Part shown: one piece after another, positions 15,020-21,969 of the stretch
Layout of the letters: every line of letters starts with the position of its first letter
Numbering within the stretch: position 1 is the first letter of the stretch
Source: Desulfobacterales bacterium
GTDB lineage: Bacteria > Desulfobacterota > Desulfobacteria > Desulfobacterales > JARGFK01
Direction of reading: 5' to 3'
DNA length: 48,162 nt
Assembly: GCA_029211065.1 (NCBI GenBank)
Contig: JARGFK010000026.1
Coordinates: forward strand, 1-48,162
Made by a program: the position numbers and the translations under genes
Notes under the pieces: model-generated
Told to the model about the DNA's origin: nothing
What the model saw: only the letters and a program-made list of their open reading frames with translations
Database searches by the model: none

Positions 15020-16081
15020 TTATAGAAAAGAGAGAAAAATTGAATCGTTAGACGGCCTGACCTTTCCAATGATAGCGGCGTGGGAAACGCCCGCTCTCCG
15101 GAGCGCAGTGATCACTTGGTTTCCGATGCTTTCGGGCACGGCCAACAACAATCCGCCGCTGGTCTGGGGATCAAACACAATTTCCTCATGCCAGGCCGGC
15201 AGTTTCCGACTAAAATGCAAATGGTTCTCAACCAGTTCCCGGTTAGACCGGTTTACCCCGGTGGTCATCCCCTTTTCGTACATTGCAAGGGCATCGGTCA
15301 TGATGGGTATTTTTTCGATTTCAATCTCAAATCTCGTCTTTGAACCCCTGGCCATTTCAAAGCTATGCCCGGCCAGACCGAATCCGGTGACATCGGTAGC
15401 GGCATGGACGCTATAATCCGTCATGACTTCCGCCGCCCTTTTATTCAGGGTCGTAATGACGGTGATACATTCCGCCATGGCCCGGGCTGAAACCCATTTT
15501 TTCAGGTTCGCATTAAAAAGAACACCGCTGCCGACAGGTTTGGTTAAAATAAGCACATCCCCCGGCCGGGATGTACTATTCGACCAGTATTTCTGGGGAT
15601 GAACAATCCCGGTCACCGCCAGACCGAACTTGGGCTCATCATCTTCGATACTGTGGCCGCCGGCAAGTACAGCCCCGGCCTCCGTTATTTTGCTAAGGGC
15701 TCCGGCAACAATCCGCTGCAAAACATCCGGCCGGAGCTTTTTGGCCGGAAATGCAACCAGATTCAGGCAGGCAATCGGTTTAGCTCCCATGGCATAAACA
15801 TCCCCGAGGGCATTTGCGGCTGCGATCTGTCCAAACAGGTAGGGATCGTCTACCGGCGGTGTAATAAAATCAGCCGTCAAGACCAGGGCGGTTTCATTAT
15901 CCAGACGATAAATCCCGGCATCATCGCTGCCGGCATAACCCACCAGCAGATTGGGATTATTAACCTGGGGCAGAGAAGCCAAAAGTTTATCGAGCCCGAC
16001 CGGGTCGATTTTGGCTGCTCACCCACAGGTCTTGGACAGGCTAAGCAAAGTCGGTTTCCGGAACATTTTCCACAATGCCAT
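15020..16081 (-). CDS. selD: selenide, water dikinase (selenophosphate synthetase), selenocysteine-containing
   Basis: SelD makes selenophosphate from selenide and ATP for selenocysteine and selenouridine synthesis. The true gene starts at an ATG at 16081 (AGGAG upstream) and reads through an in-frame TGA at 16021-16019, giving 353 aa with selenocysteine at residue 21 in the catalytic loop TCG-Sec-AAKI. This is the position of the active-site Cys/Sec of the family. Downstream are ATP-binding and core motifs (GYAGSDDAGIYRL, LTADFITPPVDDPY, NALGDVYAMG, LAGGHSIEDDEPKFG, ATDVTGFGLAGH, DPQTSGGLL). A frame beginning at a TTG at 15982 would miss the catalytic residue. The gene is co-transcribed with the upstream cNMP-binding gene (29-base gap). 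The host must also encode SelA, SelB and tRNA-Sec, not seen here. Confidence 0.95.
15977..16016 (-). promoter_or_regulatory. bacterial SECIS element in selD
   Basis: Directly after the UGA, the mRNA can form an outer 8-bp stem (AGCCAAAA with UUUUGGCU), a UCGA/UCGA stem, and a CCC/GGG apical stem closing a GGUC loop. The GGUC lies 18-21 bases after the UGA. In E. coli fdhF the equivalent GGUC apical loop is 19-22 bases after the UGA, so both loop and spacing fit SelB-dependent recoding. Confidence 0.85.
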
Positions 16082-16881: not shown

Positions 16882-17253
16882 CTATTTCAATGCGCTCACG
16901 GTTGCTTTTGAAGCGTCGGCTTTCTGAAACTGTTTACAGCTGACCTCGGCGTTTAAAATCCCGCCGGCCTCCACCACAAGATTCTTACATATGACGGTGC
17001 CGGAACATTTCCCGGTGGAAAGTATGATCAGTTCTTCAGATGCGGCAACTTTACCTTCAAACTTACCGCCGATCGTCATGCTGGCGACTTTTGTATCGGT
17101 ATAAGCAGCCCCGTCCTCGGCAATCACAACGATCTCGCCGTCAAGAGTCCCTTTTACGGTACCCTTGATTACCAGCTGGCCTTTGCATGAAACCGTCCCC
17201 TCAACCGTCAATCCTTTGTCGATGATTGAAAAATTTTTGGATTTGTCACCCAC
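16882..17253 (-). CDS. bactofilin (polymer-forming cytoskeletal protein)
   Basis: Bactofilins self-assemble into filaments at the inner membrane and place cell-wall enzymes. The 123-aa product is almost entirely the right-handed beta-helix core, with 6-residue-turn style repeats (LTVEGTVSCKGQLVIKGTV, ASMTIGGKFEGKVAA, CSGTVICKNLVVEAGG). Short unstructured ends flank the core. The GTG at 17253 is chosen because AGGAG lies 8 bases before it; a GTG at 17280 is possible. It is the last gene of the operon that also encodes Csd4-like and Csd6-like peptidoglycan enzymes. That parallels CcmA, which works with Csd proteins in Helicobacter helical cell shape. Confidence 0.92.
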   Translation of the reverse strand: MGDKSKNFSIIDKGLTVEGTVSCKGQLVIKGTVKGTLDGEIVVIAEDGAAYTDTKVASMTIGGKFEGKVAASEELIILSTGKCSGTVICKNLVVEAGGILNAEVSCKQFQKADASKATVSALK

Positions 17254-17296
17254 AATAATTTCTCCTGTAAATAATATCACTCCCGAATTAATTTCT

Positions 17297-18817
17297 CTAC
17301 TTGGACGCAGTGTCTTTTAAGTCCACAAATAATTTCCCGATCGGTTCCCCATCATATTTAACGATAACCTGATAAGTTCTTCCTTTTTTTCCCAGGGAAT
17401 ACCGCTGCCACAGATCCTTTCCCGTATCAATGACATACCCCCTGTCTTCGCCGGTGTTTTTCTGGGAATTTCCCACATATCCCTTAAAGTTGACCTGCAA
17501 CCGAGACGCATCACCGGATTCTACAGTGACGTCCACAATTTCGAAGGTATCCCCCTTGACAACTTCAACATGTTCATCGTTTTGGAAAGTTCGTTCCTTT
17601 CCGTTAATCCGAACTTGATATTGCGAAATGGCGGGCGCCGTCGGCCGGGGGCGTGAAATCGCGATCCCTTTTGCCTTTGTGACAACTTCACGGCTATTGC
17701 CGACCGCGACCTGTATATTGCCGCAGGAGAGATAATCCCTTCGAATGACAATTTCAGTCGGTCCCTTGATGACGACTTTTTTTCGCAAATCGCTGATGGA
17801 GCCGTAATCGATAATATCGACCGTCAGGCCGCGTTCGTAATTGGCTTCAATATGAGATATCATAATCGTATCGCCGGCATTGACGTACAGGGTCTGCCCG
17901 TCCTTGACCACCACCGGCAGCGTGTCATTAATTGATATTACCAGATAGCGCAGCTCAGGCGGTTCCAGCTTGATTCCCGGTGTTTCCGGAATAATCTCAA
18001 AATATTCCATAAAGGCATTGATGGCAAGATTGTGATAGCGCACCTCCAACTCGAGCGGAAGGGATTTGCTGGTTTCAATTCCATAGGCAGGAATCCCGCC
18101 GGTGTATAACGCATAATATGTGGCCGATTTGCGCTGTTCCCGGTGGAGGCTGCTGACTTCGGATGTTCGGTGATTGTTGAAACGAAAATGGTGCTGAGAG
18201 GGTTCGATCTGCTTGTTTATCTGTTCTATAACGGACCTTGCCATATGACCGAGCTGAACCGTTTCACCGGTTTCAGCGTTGACATAGGTTTCACTGTCCG
18301 CAATGATCGACTGCCCGTAACGCAGCGGGTTTCTTTCAGGGCTTTCCCAAACCTCTGAAAAAAAACCGCTGCCGTCATGAAGATTCAGCAGGCAATCGCT
18401 TTCCATAATCAATTGTTTTAAAATCGCCACGATTTTGGCTTCATAGTTTCTTTTTCTATCATCGGCGAACTTGCGATTCATATCTTCATTTATTATCCGC
18501 CGATTTAACACGATCGACTGAAAGTTGGCCCGCGGCACAACGATCAAATTGCCTTTGGCAAGACTGATGTCGGCGTAATGATCAGCAGAAAGAAACCCGC
18601 CGGGTTCATCTCCCTGAATCCCGCCAATGAGCAGGAGCGTTTTGCCGGGATGCTTTCCGTATATTCGATAGACATGCAGTTCATAATCGGAACCTTCAAA
18701 AAATACGGAATGACTCCGTTTTTGTGCCCCAACACCCGCTGGCAGAAAACATAAAAGCAATGCTATTATCGCAGCCAAAATGAATCTGCTGTTATATGTA
18801 CGATCTTTTTTCATCAT
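17297..18817 (-). CDS. Csd4-like peptidoglycan carboxypeptidase (M99/M14 family)
   Basis: A periplasmic zinc carboxypeptidase predicted to trim the tripeptide stem of uncrosslinked peptidoglycan. A signal peptide (about 1-31) is followed by the catalytic domain. Zinc ligands appear as Gln68 and Glu71 in GGIQGDEPGG and His147 in LNLHDGSGF. The Gln in place of the His of ordinary M14 peptidases is the hallmark reported for Helicobacter Csd4. A DMNRKF motif (about 112-117) and the catalytic Glu in YGIETSK support the fold. About 230 C-terminal residues form beta-rich domains. The ATG at 18817 is chosen; a TTG at 18829 is also possible. It lies 43 bases upstream of the bactofilin. Confidence 0.87.
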   Translation of the reverse strand: MMKKDRTYNSRFILAAIIALLLCFLPAGVGAQKRSHSVFFEGSDYELHVYRIYGKHPGKTLLLIGGIQGDEPGGFLSADHYADISLAKGNLIVVPRANFQSIVLNRRIINEDMNRKFADDRKRNYEAKIVAILKQLIMESDCLLNLHDGSGFFSEVWESPERNPLRYGQSIIADSETYVNAETGETVQLGHMARSVIEQINKQIEPSQHHFRFNNHRTSEVSSLHREQRKSATYYALYTGGIPAYGIETSKSLPLELEVRYHNLAINAFMEYFEIIPETPGIKLEPPELRYLVISINDTLPVVVKDGQTLYVNAGDTIMISHIEANYERGLTVDIIDYGSISDLRKKVVIKGPTEIVIRRDYLSCGNIQVAVGNSREVVTKAKGIAISRPRPTAPAISQYQVRINGKERTFQNDEHVEVVKGDTFEIVDVTVESGDASRLQVNFKGYVGNSQKNTGEDRGYVIDTGKDLWQRYSLGKKGRTYQVIVKYDGEPIGKLFVDLKDTASK

Positions 18818-18844
18818 AATTTTAACCAACCAGCCCTTTCAATA

Positions 18845-19759
18845 TCACTGGTTTGGCGTAAAGACGGTCTCTTGGATATTGATTGAAAAATTCTTTTCAA
18901 GCAATAAATCCTTATTTTCGTCAAACACATACACCGTAGCCGTATTAAATTGTCGGGGGTCCATTTTACTTTTAACCATAAATCTGACGGTTTTGAACCT
19001 GGCAATCGAAAAGTACTGGCCCTTCTTATCTCCCGCCGGTACACCTGCATCCAGTTTCAGCGTTGGCAGGGTTAACCAGTTATCCGGTTGCGTGTCCGGT
19101 TTTTTTAAAATGACGGCGGTATAGCCGGAAACCATGTTTGAATCCTGACCGGCATTTCTTAAAATAAATTGAGCCCTGAAAGTGCTGCTGGCCTCATCAT
19201 GGAACACATTGAATTCTTCAACCGATACCTTCAGCTCTTTTTTCTGCGCAACAGCGTCGGCCGGAGGGGTACCCGCCAGCAATTTCCCTTCCTGCCCTAA
19301 ACCAGCAGCTTCTCTTTTCTGGGCGCCTTGGATATTTGACCGGGGCTCTTTTTTAGCGCGATCTTCCGGCCGATCGCCCGGCGCTTTCTCAACCTGCTTC
19401 GGACCCTGCCGCGCCAGAAGCCTTTCCATATCCGTTTCGGCCACCACAAGCCGGGCCATGAGAACCTCTTTATCGCTGCGCAATCCGACAATCTGCTGTT
19501 GAATGGTATCTAAAGATCGCTCTAAATTCACATTTTCATTGCGGGTCTGACGATACAGATAATAGAGGATACCGCTGATGATAGCCGCCAACACCAGAAA
19601 AAAAACCCATACCATTACAATCCATCTGAACCATCTGATGGTAACGACCTCGCCATGATCCCCCACAAATAGGAGGGTCCAGCGTTTATTTTTGCGGGCC
19701 GGTTTTGGTGATTGCAGCGCGGCTATTTCTTTTGCCAGATCTCTCTGAATATTCTCCAT
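18845..19759 (-). CDS. single-TM coiled-coil protein of the cell-shape operon
   Basis: No named family recognised. It has 304 aa: a basic cytoplasmic N-tail (about 1-45), one transmembrane helix (about 46-68), a periplasmic coiled coil (about 72-120), and a charged linker (about 120-170). A beta-rich C-terminal domain (about 175-304) opens with ELKVSVEEFNVF. It overlaps the 3' end of the Csd6-like gene by 37 bases and ends 27 bases before the Csd4-like start, so it is part of one transcript. The topology (cytoplasmic tail, TM, periplasmic domain) matches what a linker between cytoplasmic bactofilin and periplasmic enzymes needs, as Csd5 does in Helicobacter. No sequence kinship to Csd5 is claimed. 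Confidence 0.75.
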   Translation of the reverse strand: MENIQRDLAKEIAALQSPKPARKNKRWTLLFVGDHGEVVTIRWFRWIVMVWVFFLVLAAIISGILYYLYRQTRNENVNLERSLDTIQQQIVGLRSDKEVLMARLVVAETDMERLLARQGPKQVEKAPGDRPEDRAKKEPRSNIQGAQKREAAGLGQEGKLLAGTPPADAVAQKKELKVSVEEFNVFHDEASSTFRAQFILRNAGQDSNMVSGYTAVILKKPDTQPDNWLTLPTLKLDAGVPAGDKKGQYFSIARFKTVRFMVKSKMDPRQFNTATVYVFDENKDLLLEKNFSINIQETVFTPNQ

Positions 19760-21156
19760 TGACCATTTTCCCGAATCAAAATAAGTTGTTTGGTACCCAC
19801 TGTTTTCAGACCGCTTGACTCATAATTCTGGATAAACGTTGCAATACTTTTATTCTTCTGATTTCTGACAACCAGATTATGATGACTGACTTTGATATAA
19901 TCATATCTCTGATTGATCCCCTGTTTGTAATCCAGCCAGGACTGAAGGCCGGCGCCTCCCTGGGATTTGAAATCTTTGGCATAGTAGGCGCCATATCTTT
20001 TGATATCCTTTGACGACCAGGCGCTTAACCAGTCTGCAACCATGTCTTTAATTTCAAGATCATCTTTAGTTGCTTTTTCAACTTTGGGGATTGCCGCAAC
20101 TTTAACCTTTTCTTTTTCCACCTTGGGGATTGCCGCAACTTTAACCTTTGCGGTTTTGCCGAGTGCAAACCCCGCCGCAACCAGTGGACTGGACGATCCG
20201 GATTCCTTTGAGGATTCGTCTGAAACAACCTGATAAACGTCGCCGACAATTTTAAGTCGATTGTCCCTGGCCGACAGAAAAAGTTTGCGGGTGCCGGCAA
20301 ACAATTCTTCGTCGGTTGTTTTTACAACCTGATCAAACAAAGCGACATAAACCGTATTATGTTTGAGAATCATGATGTTTTTGGAGTCAACGCTAAGGGG
20401 TAGCGCGGTCGATTCCTGTGTTTTTTTGATTTTCAACCAGGCAGGCCACCAGGAAATGTCCGGCAGGTACGCTTCATCATAAAACATCAGGTAATCGTGG
20501 TAGGTTCCCTTTTCAAGCGCCGCTTCCCATTGCGACAGCAACTCGTGAACCGTTTTTTTAAGCTCATTAGATGTTTGCAAGGGAACATACGTCAGCTTGT
20601 CCACAACAATAATCGGGGTTCGGTTTAAGGTGATATATTTCGCCAGTTTGTCAATATCTCGATTTTCCAGAGCAACACAGCCGTTTGAATCTCTTGGTTT
20701 CAAAGGCTTATTGGTTCCATGCATCCAGATGGAATTCCCGTCGCGCTCAAAAATTTGATCCATCAGGTTGGGATAATCCATCGGGAATGCCCGGCTGCCG
20801 TAAATCGGTGCAAGATCCCGCTTCTGGTGCTCCTTGGTAAAAAAATAGACCCCTTCCGGTGTTTTTTTATCCCCGGCGCGGGATTTGGCCCCGCGGACTT
20901 CGCCGGTGGAGCAAGGCATGCGAAAAATTACCCGGTTTGTTTCGCCAAAAGCATATAGGTATAGATTCTGTGTGCTTGTCTCCACTATAATCGCATATTC
21001 ATGTGGTTTTTCGGAGCTGGCGGAAATCAGCACATCCGGTAGGTTTTCAAGCCTGGTCTCTTTAACCGGGGCTGCCGATACCACCGCAACCACCATCAGC
21101 ACCAGAATTACCCAACACCCGCTTGCCAAGGTTTTGATTCGCAACTTCAGTCCCAA
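19723..21156 (-). CDS. Csd6-like L,D-transpeptidase/carboxypeptidase (YkuD) with two NTF2-like domains
   Basis: A periplasmic peptidoglycan-processing enzyme of 477 aa. The start is a TTG at 21156 with GAGGAGG at 7-base spacing. A signal anchor (about 13-30) precedes the YkuD domain (about 50-185), whose catalytic motif reads HGTNKPLKPRDSNGCVALEN (His ... Ser-Asn-Gly-Cys). A first NTF2-like domain follows (about 190-310), as in Helicobacter Csd6. Then comes a linker with a duplicated 13-residue unit (KVKVAAIPKVEKE), and a second NTF2-like domain (about 365-477). Csd6 acts as an L,D-carboxypeptidase trimming tetrapeptides to tripeptides, the substrate of Csd4. Neighbouring Csd4-like and bactofilin genes support that role. 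Confidence 0.87.
   Translation of the reverse strand: MGLKLRIKTLASGCWVILVLMVVAVVSAAPVKETRLENLPDVLISASSEKPHEYAIIVETSTQNLYLYAFGETNRVIFRMPCSTGEVRGAKSRAGDKKTPEGVYFFTKEHQKRDLAPIYGSRAFPMDYPNLMDQIFERDGNSIWMHGTNKPLKPRDSNGCVALENRDIDKLAKYITLNRTPIIVVDKLTYVPLQTSNELKKTVHELLSQWEAALEKGTYHDYLMFYDEAYLPDISWWPAWLKIKKTQESTALPLSVDSKNIMILKHNTVYVALFDQVVKTTDEELFAGTRKLFLSARDNRLKIVGDVYQVVSDESSKESGSSSPLVAAGFALGKTAKVKVAAIPKVEKEKVKVAAIPKVEKATKDDLEIKDMVADWLSAWSSKDIKRYGAYYAKDFKSQGGAGLQSWLDYKQGINQRYDYIKVSHHNLVVRNQKNKSIATFIQNYESSGLKTVGTKQLILIRENGQWRIFREIWQKK
20074..20151 (-). repeat. 39-base in-frame tandem duplication within the YkuD gene
   Basis: Two near-identical 39-base copies (the core GGGGATTGCCGCAACTTTAA begins at 20086 and again at 20125). 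Each encodes 13 residues, so copy-number change would keep the frame. The repeat lies in the linker between the two NTF2-like domains. Confidence 0.8.
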
Positions 21157-21168
21157 AATACAACCTCC

Positions 21169-21969
21169 TCAATCATCTAATCCGATCCGGACGGTATCTC
21201 CTATGGCCACATTGAACTTAGCCCGGGCGCTGCCCTTGTTAACGGCAATCTCCAGATAACCGCGACTTCCTGTAATAACAAGGGGATGGCCGATTTTCGC
21301 ACTGACATAATTAGGCATGACTCCCTTCAGAGTCACATCCCCGAGGACAATCACCGCTTTTTTCTCGGAGATACCATACTGTGTCAGCATATTTAAATCA
21401 ATATTTGTAATTAAATTCCCGAAATGATCGATTGAAATGACGCTCCCGACAATGGTACCGGCTTCGGTGATGCATGCTTTTGGGATAGGCAGCCGTATAA
21501 TCTCGTTTAGATCCAGCTCCGGACCGAATTCCGCTATGGCCGTTCCCCTGGACAAATAGGCGGCAACCGGAGCGACAATATCACGACCGTGGAAGGTCTG
21601 ACTAACGGGTTTTAAAAAATAATCTGAATTTTCAATACGGATGACTTTGTCGTCGCCCGTCTCATCCAGCAACAGCGACAGGACACCATTGTCGGGTGCA
21701 ATAAAAATGTGCTTATCTTTTTCATAGGCCAGAATCGCCCGGTCGCTGCCGACTCCCGGGTCAACGACAATAACATGAATCGTATTATCTGGAAAAAATC
21801 GATAGGCGGATTTGACGAGGAAGGCCGCCTGAAGGATGCCTTGCGGTTCAACCCGGTGCGAAATATCAACAATGACGGCTGCCGGATTGATGGACAATAT
21901 GACCCCTTTCATCACCCCGACATATTCATCAGCAAAACCAAAATCCGTTAAGAGCGAAATAATAGACAT
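21169..21969 (-). CDS. SAM hydroxide adenosyltransferase (DUF62, chlorinase/fluorinase family)
   Basis: A 266-aa member of the SAM-dependent halogenase-like superfamily; most bacterial members hydrolyse S-adenosylmethionine to adenosine and methionine. The N-terminus ISLLTDFGFADEYVGVMKG (about 3-21) is diagnostic. VDPGVGSDR and FIAPDNGVLSLL follow, then NLITNI in the C-terminal beta-barrel. The physiological role is unclear. It begins 37 bases after ruvB ends and stops 12 bases before the Csd6-like gene, so it links the ruv and cell-shape blocks in a run of closely spaced minus-strand genes. Confidence 0.9.
   Translation of the reverse strand: MSIISLLTDFGFADEYVGVMKGVILSINPAAVIVDISHRVEPQGILQAAFLVKSAYRFFPDNTIHVIVVDPGVGSDRAILAYEKDKHIFIAPDNGVLSLLLDETGDDKVIRIENSDYFLKPVSQTFHGRDIVAPVAAYLSRGTAIAEFGPELDLNEIIRLPIPKACITEAGTIVGSVISIDHFGNLITNIDLNMLTQYGISEKKAVIVLGDVTLKGVMPNYVSAKIGHPLVITGSRGYLEIAVNKGSARAKFNVAIGDTVRIGLDD

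Follow-up and report, generated by a model that had tools for sequence, protein, structure and literature searches.

LmdC-BacA of Hyphomonas and Rhodospirillum pairs an M23 peptidase with a bactofilin; LmdC is bitopic, is encoded beside the bactofilin and carries, in order, a cytoplasmic beta-hairpin that is critical for bactofilin binding, a transmembrane (TM) helix and a periplasmic coiled coil (PMC10945521). In Helicobacter pylori, the single-TM protein Csd5, which has a peptidoglycan-binding SH3 domain, is reported to join the cytoplasmic bactofilin CcmA to the periplasmic carboxypeptidase Csd4 (PMC9507126, PMC4220969). Csd4 cleaves tripeptides to dipeptides and was reported in 2012 as conserved within the Delta/Epsilonproteobacteria (PMC3310797). 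Bd1075 of Bdellovibrio is a Csd6-like shape enzyme, a YkuD L,D-carboxypeptidase that converts tetra- to tripeptides, is placed on the convex face by its NTF2 domain and is encoded by a monocistronic gene (PMC8938487). In this study, we analyzed a locus of a Desulfobacterales bacterium (contig JARGFK010000026.1 of assembly GCA_029211065.1; the window is the whole stretch of 48,162 nucleotides) in which, unlike Csd5/CcmA/Csd4 of H. pylori, four such genes lie together, encoding a predicted Csd6/Bd1075-type L,D-carboxypeptidase (LDC), a single-TM adaptor-like protein (LINK), a predicted Csd4-type D,L-carboxypeptidase (M99) and a bactofilin (BAC). We consider it moderately probable (about 60%) that they constitute a bactofilin-docked peptidoglycan-trimming module with LINK as its adaptor.

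The initial annotation, made from the sequence alone, had presented these genes as a Helicobacter-type cell-shape module, consecutive on one strand. All four are present as neighbors on the minus strand, running from 21156 to 16882: LDC (19723-21156; 477 residues, TTG start), LINK (18845-19759; 304 residues), M99 (17297-18829; 510 residues) and BAC (16882-17280; 132 residues). The LDC and LINK frames share 37 bp, and gaps of 15 and 16 bp separate LINK from M99 and M99 from BAC. A promoter-like site that matches the consensus at 11 of 12 positions (identified by consensus alone, the region having 13 such sites versus 9.3 in shuffles) lies 3' of BAC, ahead of the next gene, and BAC is therefore probably the last gene of the operon. 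The occurrence of such enzymes outside Campylobacterota is not itself new, since Csd4 is known from Delta/Epsilonproteobacteria (PMC3310797) and the Csd6-like Bd1075 from Bdellovibrio (PMC8938487), and the enzyme families are likewise already known. For LINK and for the four-gene unit, no description was found in searches of open-licence PMC literature. The unit is a form of the bactofilin plus wall hydrolase theme, with a separate putative adaptor.

The complete gene order recurs far more often than chance would produce. Among the named loci, which are the best 80 of 337 found from the M99 alignment and thus the nearest relatives, LDC-LINK-M99-BAC occurs in 52, so that the conservation on which the initial annotation had staked its proposal was borne out. 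The other 28 comprise six LINK-M99-BAC and four LDC-LINK-M99 loci possibly cut by a contig end, five LINK-M99-BAC loci without LDC, five with LDC-M99 alone, three with BAC first and five single cases. Median spacings are -37 (LDC/LINK), +5 and +8 bp, and the 37-bp overlap itself is found in 39 of the 60 loci that have both LDC and LINK. Nearly all named loci are from metagenome-assembled genomes, mostly assigned to Desulfobacterales, Desulfobacteraceae or Deltaproteobacteria, with a few from Syntrophales, Syntrophus, Proteobacteria or a plain 'bacterium' and one from Latescibacterota.

A wider comparison covered 395 genomes of the phylum, which overlap with the named loci (L041 and L004 are apparently the same contig). 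LINK (E<=1e-7) was found in 62 genomes, M99 in 69 and both in 37, a co-occurrence with a Fisher p of 4e-17, in which kinship between genomes is not accounted for. The LINK count rests on 65 places in the 62 genomes, out of 106 genomes with a match at E<=0.001; weaker matches were left out because most cover the TM/coiled-coil region only, as were six more below 1e-7 in genomes already counted. For M99, 72 of 76 places were used, two under the cut-off and two short matches having been dropped. Within 5 kb, LINK has both a bactofilin and M99 in 17 genomes, M99 only in 17 and a bactofilin only in 16, and hence a bactofilin in 33 and M99 in 34 of the 62. At L041:4824-4891, no LINK was detected between LDC and M99, and at the corresponding position in L004 the tblastn match is limited to the first 37 residues of LINK.

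The initial annotation had proposed the 304-residue protein as a Csd5-like physical link between the bactofilin and the enzymes. The AlphaFold model of LINK (54 aligned sequences, hand-picked for length from 90 LINK matches, from named loci only plus the window; mean predicted local distance difference test score 83.1, predicted template-modeling score 0.48) has the topology expected of such a link. A helix at residues 4-15 is followed by a predicted cytoplasmic beta-hairpin (residues 28-42; 19634-19678, minus strand) with strands at 30-32 and 38-40, the proposed bactofilin-docking site. The TM segment continues as a coiled coil in one helix (residues 44-117; 19409-19630, minus strand), and a low-confidence or disordered stretch to about residue 177 leads to a periplasmic nine-strand Ig-like beta-sandwich (residues 178-298; 18866-19228, minus strand). 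In the model, LINK shares with LmdC the order of its parts as far as the coiled coil, and it differs in having the Ig-like domain in place of M23, with the enzymes encoded on either side of it as separate proteins. The Csd5 comparison is weaker: LINK is without an SH3 match, and its modeled N-tail appears nearer to that of LmdC.

Searches with LINK gave few relationships, although a family missing from the matches listed could still be related to it. The window's copy has no family over cut-off in Pfam or NCBIfam, no Pfam family was matched by more than two of the 54 aligned LINKs, and SH3 is absent from the 17 families matched by any of them at E<=0.01. The M23 domain gave no Pfam match in the window's LINK or in the 54. 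The best E-value of the LINK profile against the PDB was 0.1, and the Foldseek matches were to beta-sandwiches that form part of larger proteins. In structural comparison (VIA), the best match of the Ig-like domain was to part of a GH2 enzyme (Z 10.2, root-mean-square deviation 2.3 over 101 residues), the top-ranked folds being largely from glycoside hydrolases. DUF6776 is a gammaproteobacterial coiled-coil protein found near bactofilins; as a family for LINK it was unsupported, PF20567 being over cut-off in none of eight genomes and matching weakly (E<=10) only away from the LINK places.

The LINK N-tail was compared with 31 LmdC-like M23 N-tails from the same phylum, standing in for LmdC itself, using one profile of 18 distant LINKs and another of the window's group of 54. 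The distant-LINK profile matched the M23 tails with a probability of 96.3% (E 1.6e-9) and the window-group profile with 74.8% (E 2.6e-5), scores that all 150 column shuffles fell short of. With the TM side removed, the distant-LINK match still stood at 95.2%. A hidden Markov model (HMM) of the distant-LINK tails separated the M23 tails from 275 control tails with an area under the curve (AUC) of 0.93, with 16 of 31 exceeding the 99th percentile of the controls, although this control is imperfect because many of its tails are short and signal-peptide-like. Distant LINK tails match those of the window's group at 95.7%, so that the kinship of the window's LINK to LmdC-like tails is mainly indirect, carried by the distant LINKs. 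Judged by sequence, the LINK N-tail therefore resembles the LmdC-type bactofilin-binding hairpin strongly in distant LINKs and weakly in the window's group. Five weak LINK-profile matches (G114, G142, G079, G149 and G177; E 1.1e-6 to 3.9e-4) fall within open frames of M23 genes, and the TM helix and coiled coil may contribute to them.

BAC matches the Pfam family Bactofilin (PF04519; E 2.4e-19, 69.8 bits against a cut-off of 27.9). Judged from the sequence, its likelier start appears to be a GTG at 17253 behind AGGAG, which would give 123 residues. Its short 'SIID' N-tail, GDKSKNFSIIDKG, is without the MFSKKKK-type membrane motif, a motif that is common and not universal. That motif is reported to be global, the prevalent Thermodesulfobacteriota motif being fundamentally different, in a survey that left out tails of fewer than eight residues (PMC12448750). 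Among 87 bactofilin matches, 66 fit a SIID-type short tail and five a loose MFxxK pattern, although one of the five is a chance match inside the domain; three MF-type tails missed by the pattern (L093, L102, L146) bring the total by eye to about 7 of 87, and each of the seven belongs to a variant that starts with BAC or contains an M23 gene. In the genome family f81, the bactofilin tails are longer, basic and outside both classes. The SIID tails would suit a LINK that acts as the membrane anchor of the bactofilin.

LDC, a predicted secreted enzyme, has YkuD (E 2.1e-21) and Cds6_C (NTF2; 2.9e-23) over the Pfam cut-offs, following an N-terminal hydrophobic helix. Its best PDB sequence match was Bd1075 (7o21, E 3.3e-39), followed by Csd6 and Pgp2, and residues 37-312 of its model superimpose on 7o21 with a Z of 25.6 (VIA). 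The active site His146-Gly147...Cys160 (20677-20721, minus strand) is equivalent to H141/A142/C156 of Bd1075 (PMC8938487), with H146 and C160 present in all 41 relatives and G147 in 39. The order of YkuD followed by NTF2, which the initial annotation had noted as Csd6-like and which characterizes the Csd6/Pgp2/Bd1075 class, is thus present; the single NTF2 domain of the three solved members, perhaps not a defining trait, is replaced by two. NTF2-A (residues 193-312; 20221-20580, minus strand) was placed by the AlphaFold model and NTF2-B (residues 362-477; 19726-20073, minus strand) by alignment to 7o21, and their profiles match each other (probability 99.4%, E 1.8e-21). NTF2-B includes Trp474, the equivalent of Bd1075 Trp303, which is a tryptophan in 31 of 41 relatives, the window included. 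Since Trp303 was reported as absent from L,D-carboxypeptidases other than Bd1075 (PMC8938487), the LDC group is, on its alignment, an exception. We had considered that tandem NTF2 domains might be a LINK-binding addition, which was ruled out, as both also occur in LDCs with no LINK detected nearby (L064, L070, L073, L074, L089). Only one NTF2 was found by profile in some distant LDCs (e.g. L137-L141, L145), and L196 has one. LDC differs from Bd1075 in its second NTF2 domain and in being encoded with LINK, M99 and a bactofilin.

M99, likewise a predicted secreted enzyme, matches Peptidase_M99 (PF17033) over cut-off (E 3.1e-38), whereas the C-terminal Ig-like domain of the three-domain Csd4 architecture (M99_C, PF17129) reaches 18.3 bits in it, below the cut-off of 27. 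It matches three PDB sequences, two of which, 4wck and 4wcm, we take to be Csd4. The third represents entries 4q6m to 4q6q, which were deposited under the name of H. pylori Csd4 and for which a QxxE...H metal-binding motif was described (PMC4220969). The zinc set Gln-Glu-His named by the initial annotation was upheld, with Q72, E75 and H151 aligning to Csd4 Gln46, Glu49 and His128; R111, R119 and E252, read by eye from the alignment, correspond to the substrate-binding Arg86 and Arg94 and the general base Glu222. None of the six residues varies among 12 operon-type M99s, one of which is the window's. In 48 of 86 operon-type M99 frames, more than 100 residues follow the GEDRG motif; the window's copy has 45 and is without that C-terminal extra. 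In the Olavius algarvensis Delta 4 endosymbiont (L056:6495-8681), M99 and the bactofilin share one 728-residue open frame with an internal GTG ahead of the bactofilin, indicating either a fusion or an internal start.

The M99 scores bear on the term Helicobacter-type. The window's M99 scores 134 bits against the Peptidase_M99 model, below the other M99 type of the phylum: 17 of the 72 M99 places score above 200 bits, and LINK lies within 4 kb of none of these 17, compared with 34 of the 55 that score lower. The closest Csd4 homologs of the phylum are therefore not those of the operon. The nearest solved relative of LDC is Bd1075, and LINK appears nearer to LmdC, so that the term is only partly apt. 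The broader sense of the claim, that Csd4-type and Csd6-type enzymes and a bactofilin form a conserved operon-like unit, was sustained. A constant association of the phylum's Csd4 with a bactofilin was ruled out by 11 loci (L177-L187) in which profiles found no LINK, LDC or bactofilin; nine of these scored above 200 bits, and L186 and L187 were grouped by profile E-value only. The two upstream neighbors that were scanned are VanY-type carboxypeptidase genes standing directly before a Csd4-proper M99 (L177:5514-6413, L187:3764-4624), so that the phylum has, by sequence, a further combination of trimming enzymes.

In the module that we favor, the bactofilin would polymerize beneath the inner membrane, and LINK would span the membrane, its cytoplasmic hairpin gripping the bactofilin as that of LmdC does. 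The coiled coil and disordered linker would extend into the periplasm, where the Ig-like domain would hold or concentrate the enzymes. By analogy with Bd1075 (PMC8938487) and Csd4 (PMC3310797), LDC could remove the fourth residue of the stem peptide and M99 the third, so that together they could run from tetra- through tri- to dipeptide. Stems trimmed at the filament site would be unusable for cross-linking, local wall growth would be biased and the cell bent or otherwise shaped. We infer the binding of LINK to bactofilin and enzymes, the enzyme activities and any shape outcome from these likenesses. The start of LINK within LDC points to joint expression of the two and perhaps to a joint complex. 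Also in favor, LINK adjoins BAC in four f81 loci (L191-L194) where neither M99 nor LDC occurs in the 3 to 10 kb read, so that the LINK-bactofilin pairing stands alone there. A more specific version, which we hold only tentatively, would make LINK an LmdC-type bactofilin receptor with its M23 hydrolase swapped for a recruitment domain, the cytoskeleton-bound enzyme thereby becoming a general adaptor that aims freely diffusing carboxypeptidases; in this version the bactofilin lost its lipid-binding tail, leaving the adaptor as its sole membrane anchor.

Several results weigh against this module. Seven of the 80 named loci have LDC and M99 with no LINK detected (L041, L064, L070, L073, L074, L089, L103), LINK-M99 occurs without LDC where a contig end is no explanation in six (L028, L031, L037, L039, L052, L071), and in 12 of the 62 LINK genomes neither a bactofilin nor M99 lies within 5 kb of LINK. 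For the window group itself, the match to M23 tails drops to 19.4% once the TM side is removed, while remaining above the 150 shuffles, and its N-tail HMM separates M23 from the 275 controls weakly (AUC 0.72, with 3 of 31 exceeding the 99th percentile). The distribution of SIID tails follows phylogeny too, and a missing MFSKKKK motif is no proof of missing membrane binding. Of the eight f81 LINK genomes, M99 was found in none and LDC in one (G205), and the f81 LINK retains the Ig-like domain, which consequently cannot be solely a holder of these enzymes. Helical shape, finally, cannot be inferred from the four genes. Holders of the operon include genera that we take to be oval or straight, which makes helicity an unlikely general outcome.

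Among the alternatives, a general wall-remodeling operon, which would serve division, recycling or a growth zone and would not act on curvature in particular, the bactofilin only focusing trimming at a pole or mid-cell, survives best, and we regard it as rather unlikely. The differing shapes that we assume for the genera carrying the operon would fit it, as would the housekeeping-like neighborhood of SAM hydroxide adenosyltransferase and tol-pal (family matches) and ruvABC (read from the proteins by eye). The SAM hydroxide adenosyltransferase gene (21169-21969, minus strand), which is outside the counted module, lies 12 bp upstream of LDC, with which it is perhaps co-transcribed, and a relative is present in 21 of the 80 named loci. 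The patchiness of the set speaks against such a general role, M99 being matched in 19 of 58 genomes of the window's order, its own included.

That LINK is instead a wall sensor, whose Ig-like domain binds peptidoglycan as the Csd5 SH3 domain does and so places the bactofilin, with LDC and M99 localizing themselves through NTF2 and accessory domains, appears unlikely. It would account for the f81 LINKs that keep their C-terminal domain beside a bactofilin without M99 and mostly without LDC, and for the largely glycoside hydrolase folds that rank highest for that domain; the placement of Bd1075 by NTF2 (PMC8938487) and the retention of Trp474 agree with it as well. It fits poorly with the preference of LINK for lower-scoring M99 places (34 of 55 versus 0 of 17) and with the overlap of the LINK start with LDC. 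Convergence, a basic hairpin before a TM helix being a common cytoplasmic tail end that implies no bactofilin binding, is improbable as the source of the likeness between LINK and LmdC tails, for although the signal is short and weak in the window's group, the likeness of distant LINKs to M23 tails exceeds that of every shuffle and of most controls, and LINK lies near a bactofilin in 33 of 62 genomes.

Other loci and genes were observed beside these. A five-gene cluster, LDC-LINK-M99-M23-BAC, with an LmdC-like M23 gene, was found in three loci (L195, 2789-8116; L080; L084) and unites the LmdC and LINK types; by eye, LINK and M23 there both have hairpin-like N-tails. Because L080 and L195 are identical in M23 and BAC and L084 is identical to them at 277 of 283 and 130 of 131 positions, the cluster represents one or two species. 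At L143:4940-6300, a RuvB-like gene, a bactofilin and ribosomal genes lie nearby, and the stretch contains neither M99 nor LDC; LINK ends prematurely close to a palindromic, repeat-like segment while the bactofilin frame is open, which gives the locus the appearance of an operon copy in decay. We did not use it (G003/L143) as a natural deletion linking the Ig-like domain to the enzymes, as LINK is interrupted and the locus looks degenerate. MreB, a second bactofilin and five M23 matches also occur in the genome of the window, and two of the M23 matches were judged LmdC-like by eye. The frame of selD (15020-16081, minus strand) extends upstream beyond its listed TTG start through one in-frame TGA to give KTCGUAAK, a pattern that we take to be that of selenocysteine-containing SelD, so that this gene probably encodes a selenoprotein with its true start upstream.

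LmdC-BacA is one case in which the docking hairpin is part of the enzyme (PMC10945521). In the window, the trimming enzymes are proteins of their own, encoded in one conserved unit with a bactofilin and a membrane protein whose modeled hairpin is LmdC-like, which would make a compact four-protein system for the cytoskeletal targeting of peptide trimming. The set suggests how trimming of the wall could be aimed at one side of the cell.

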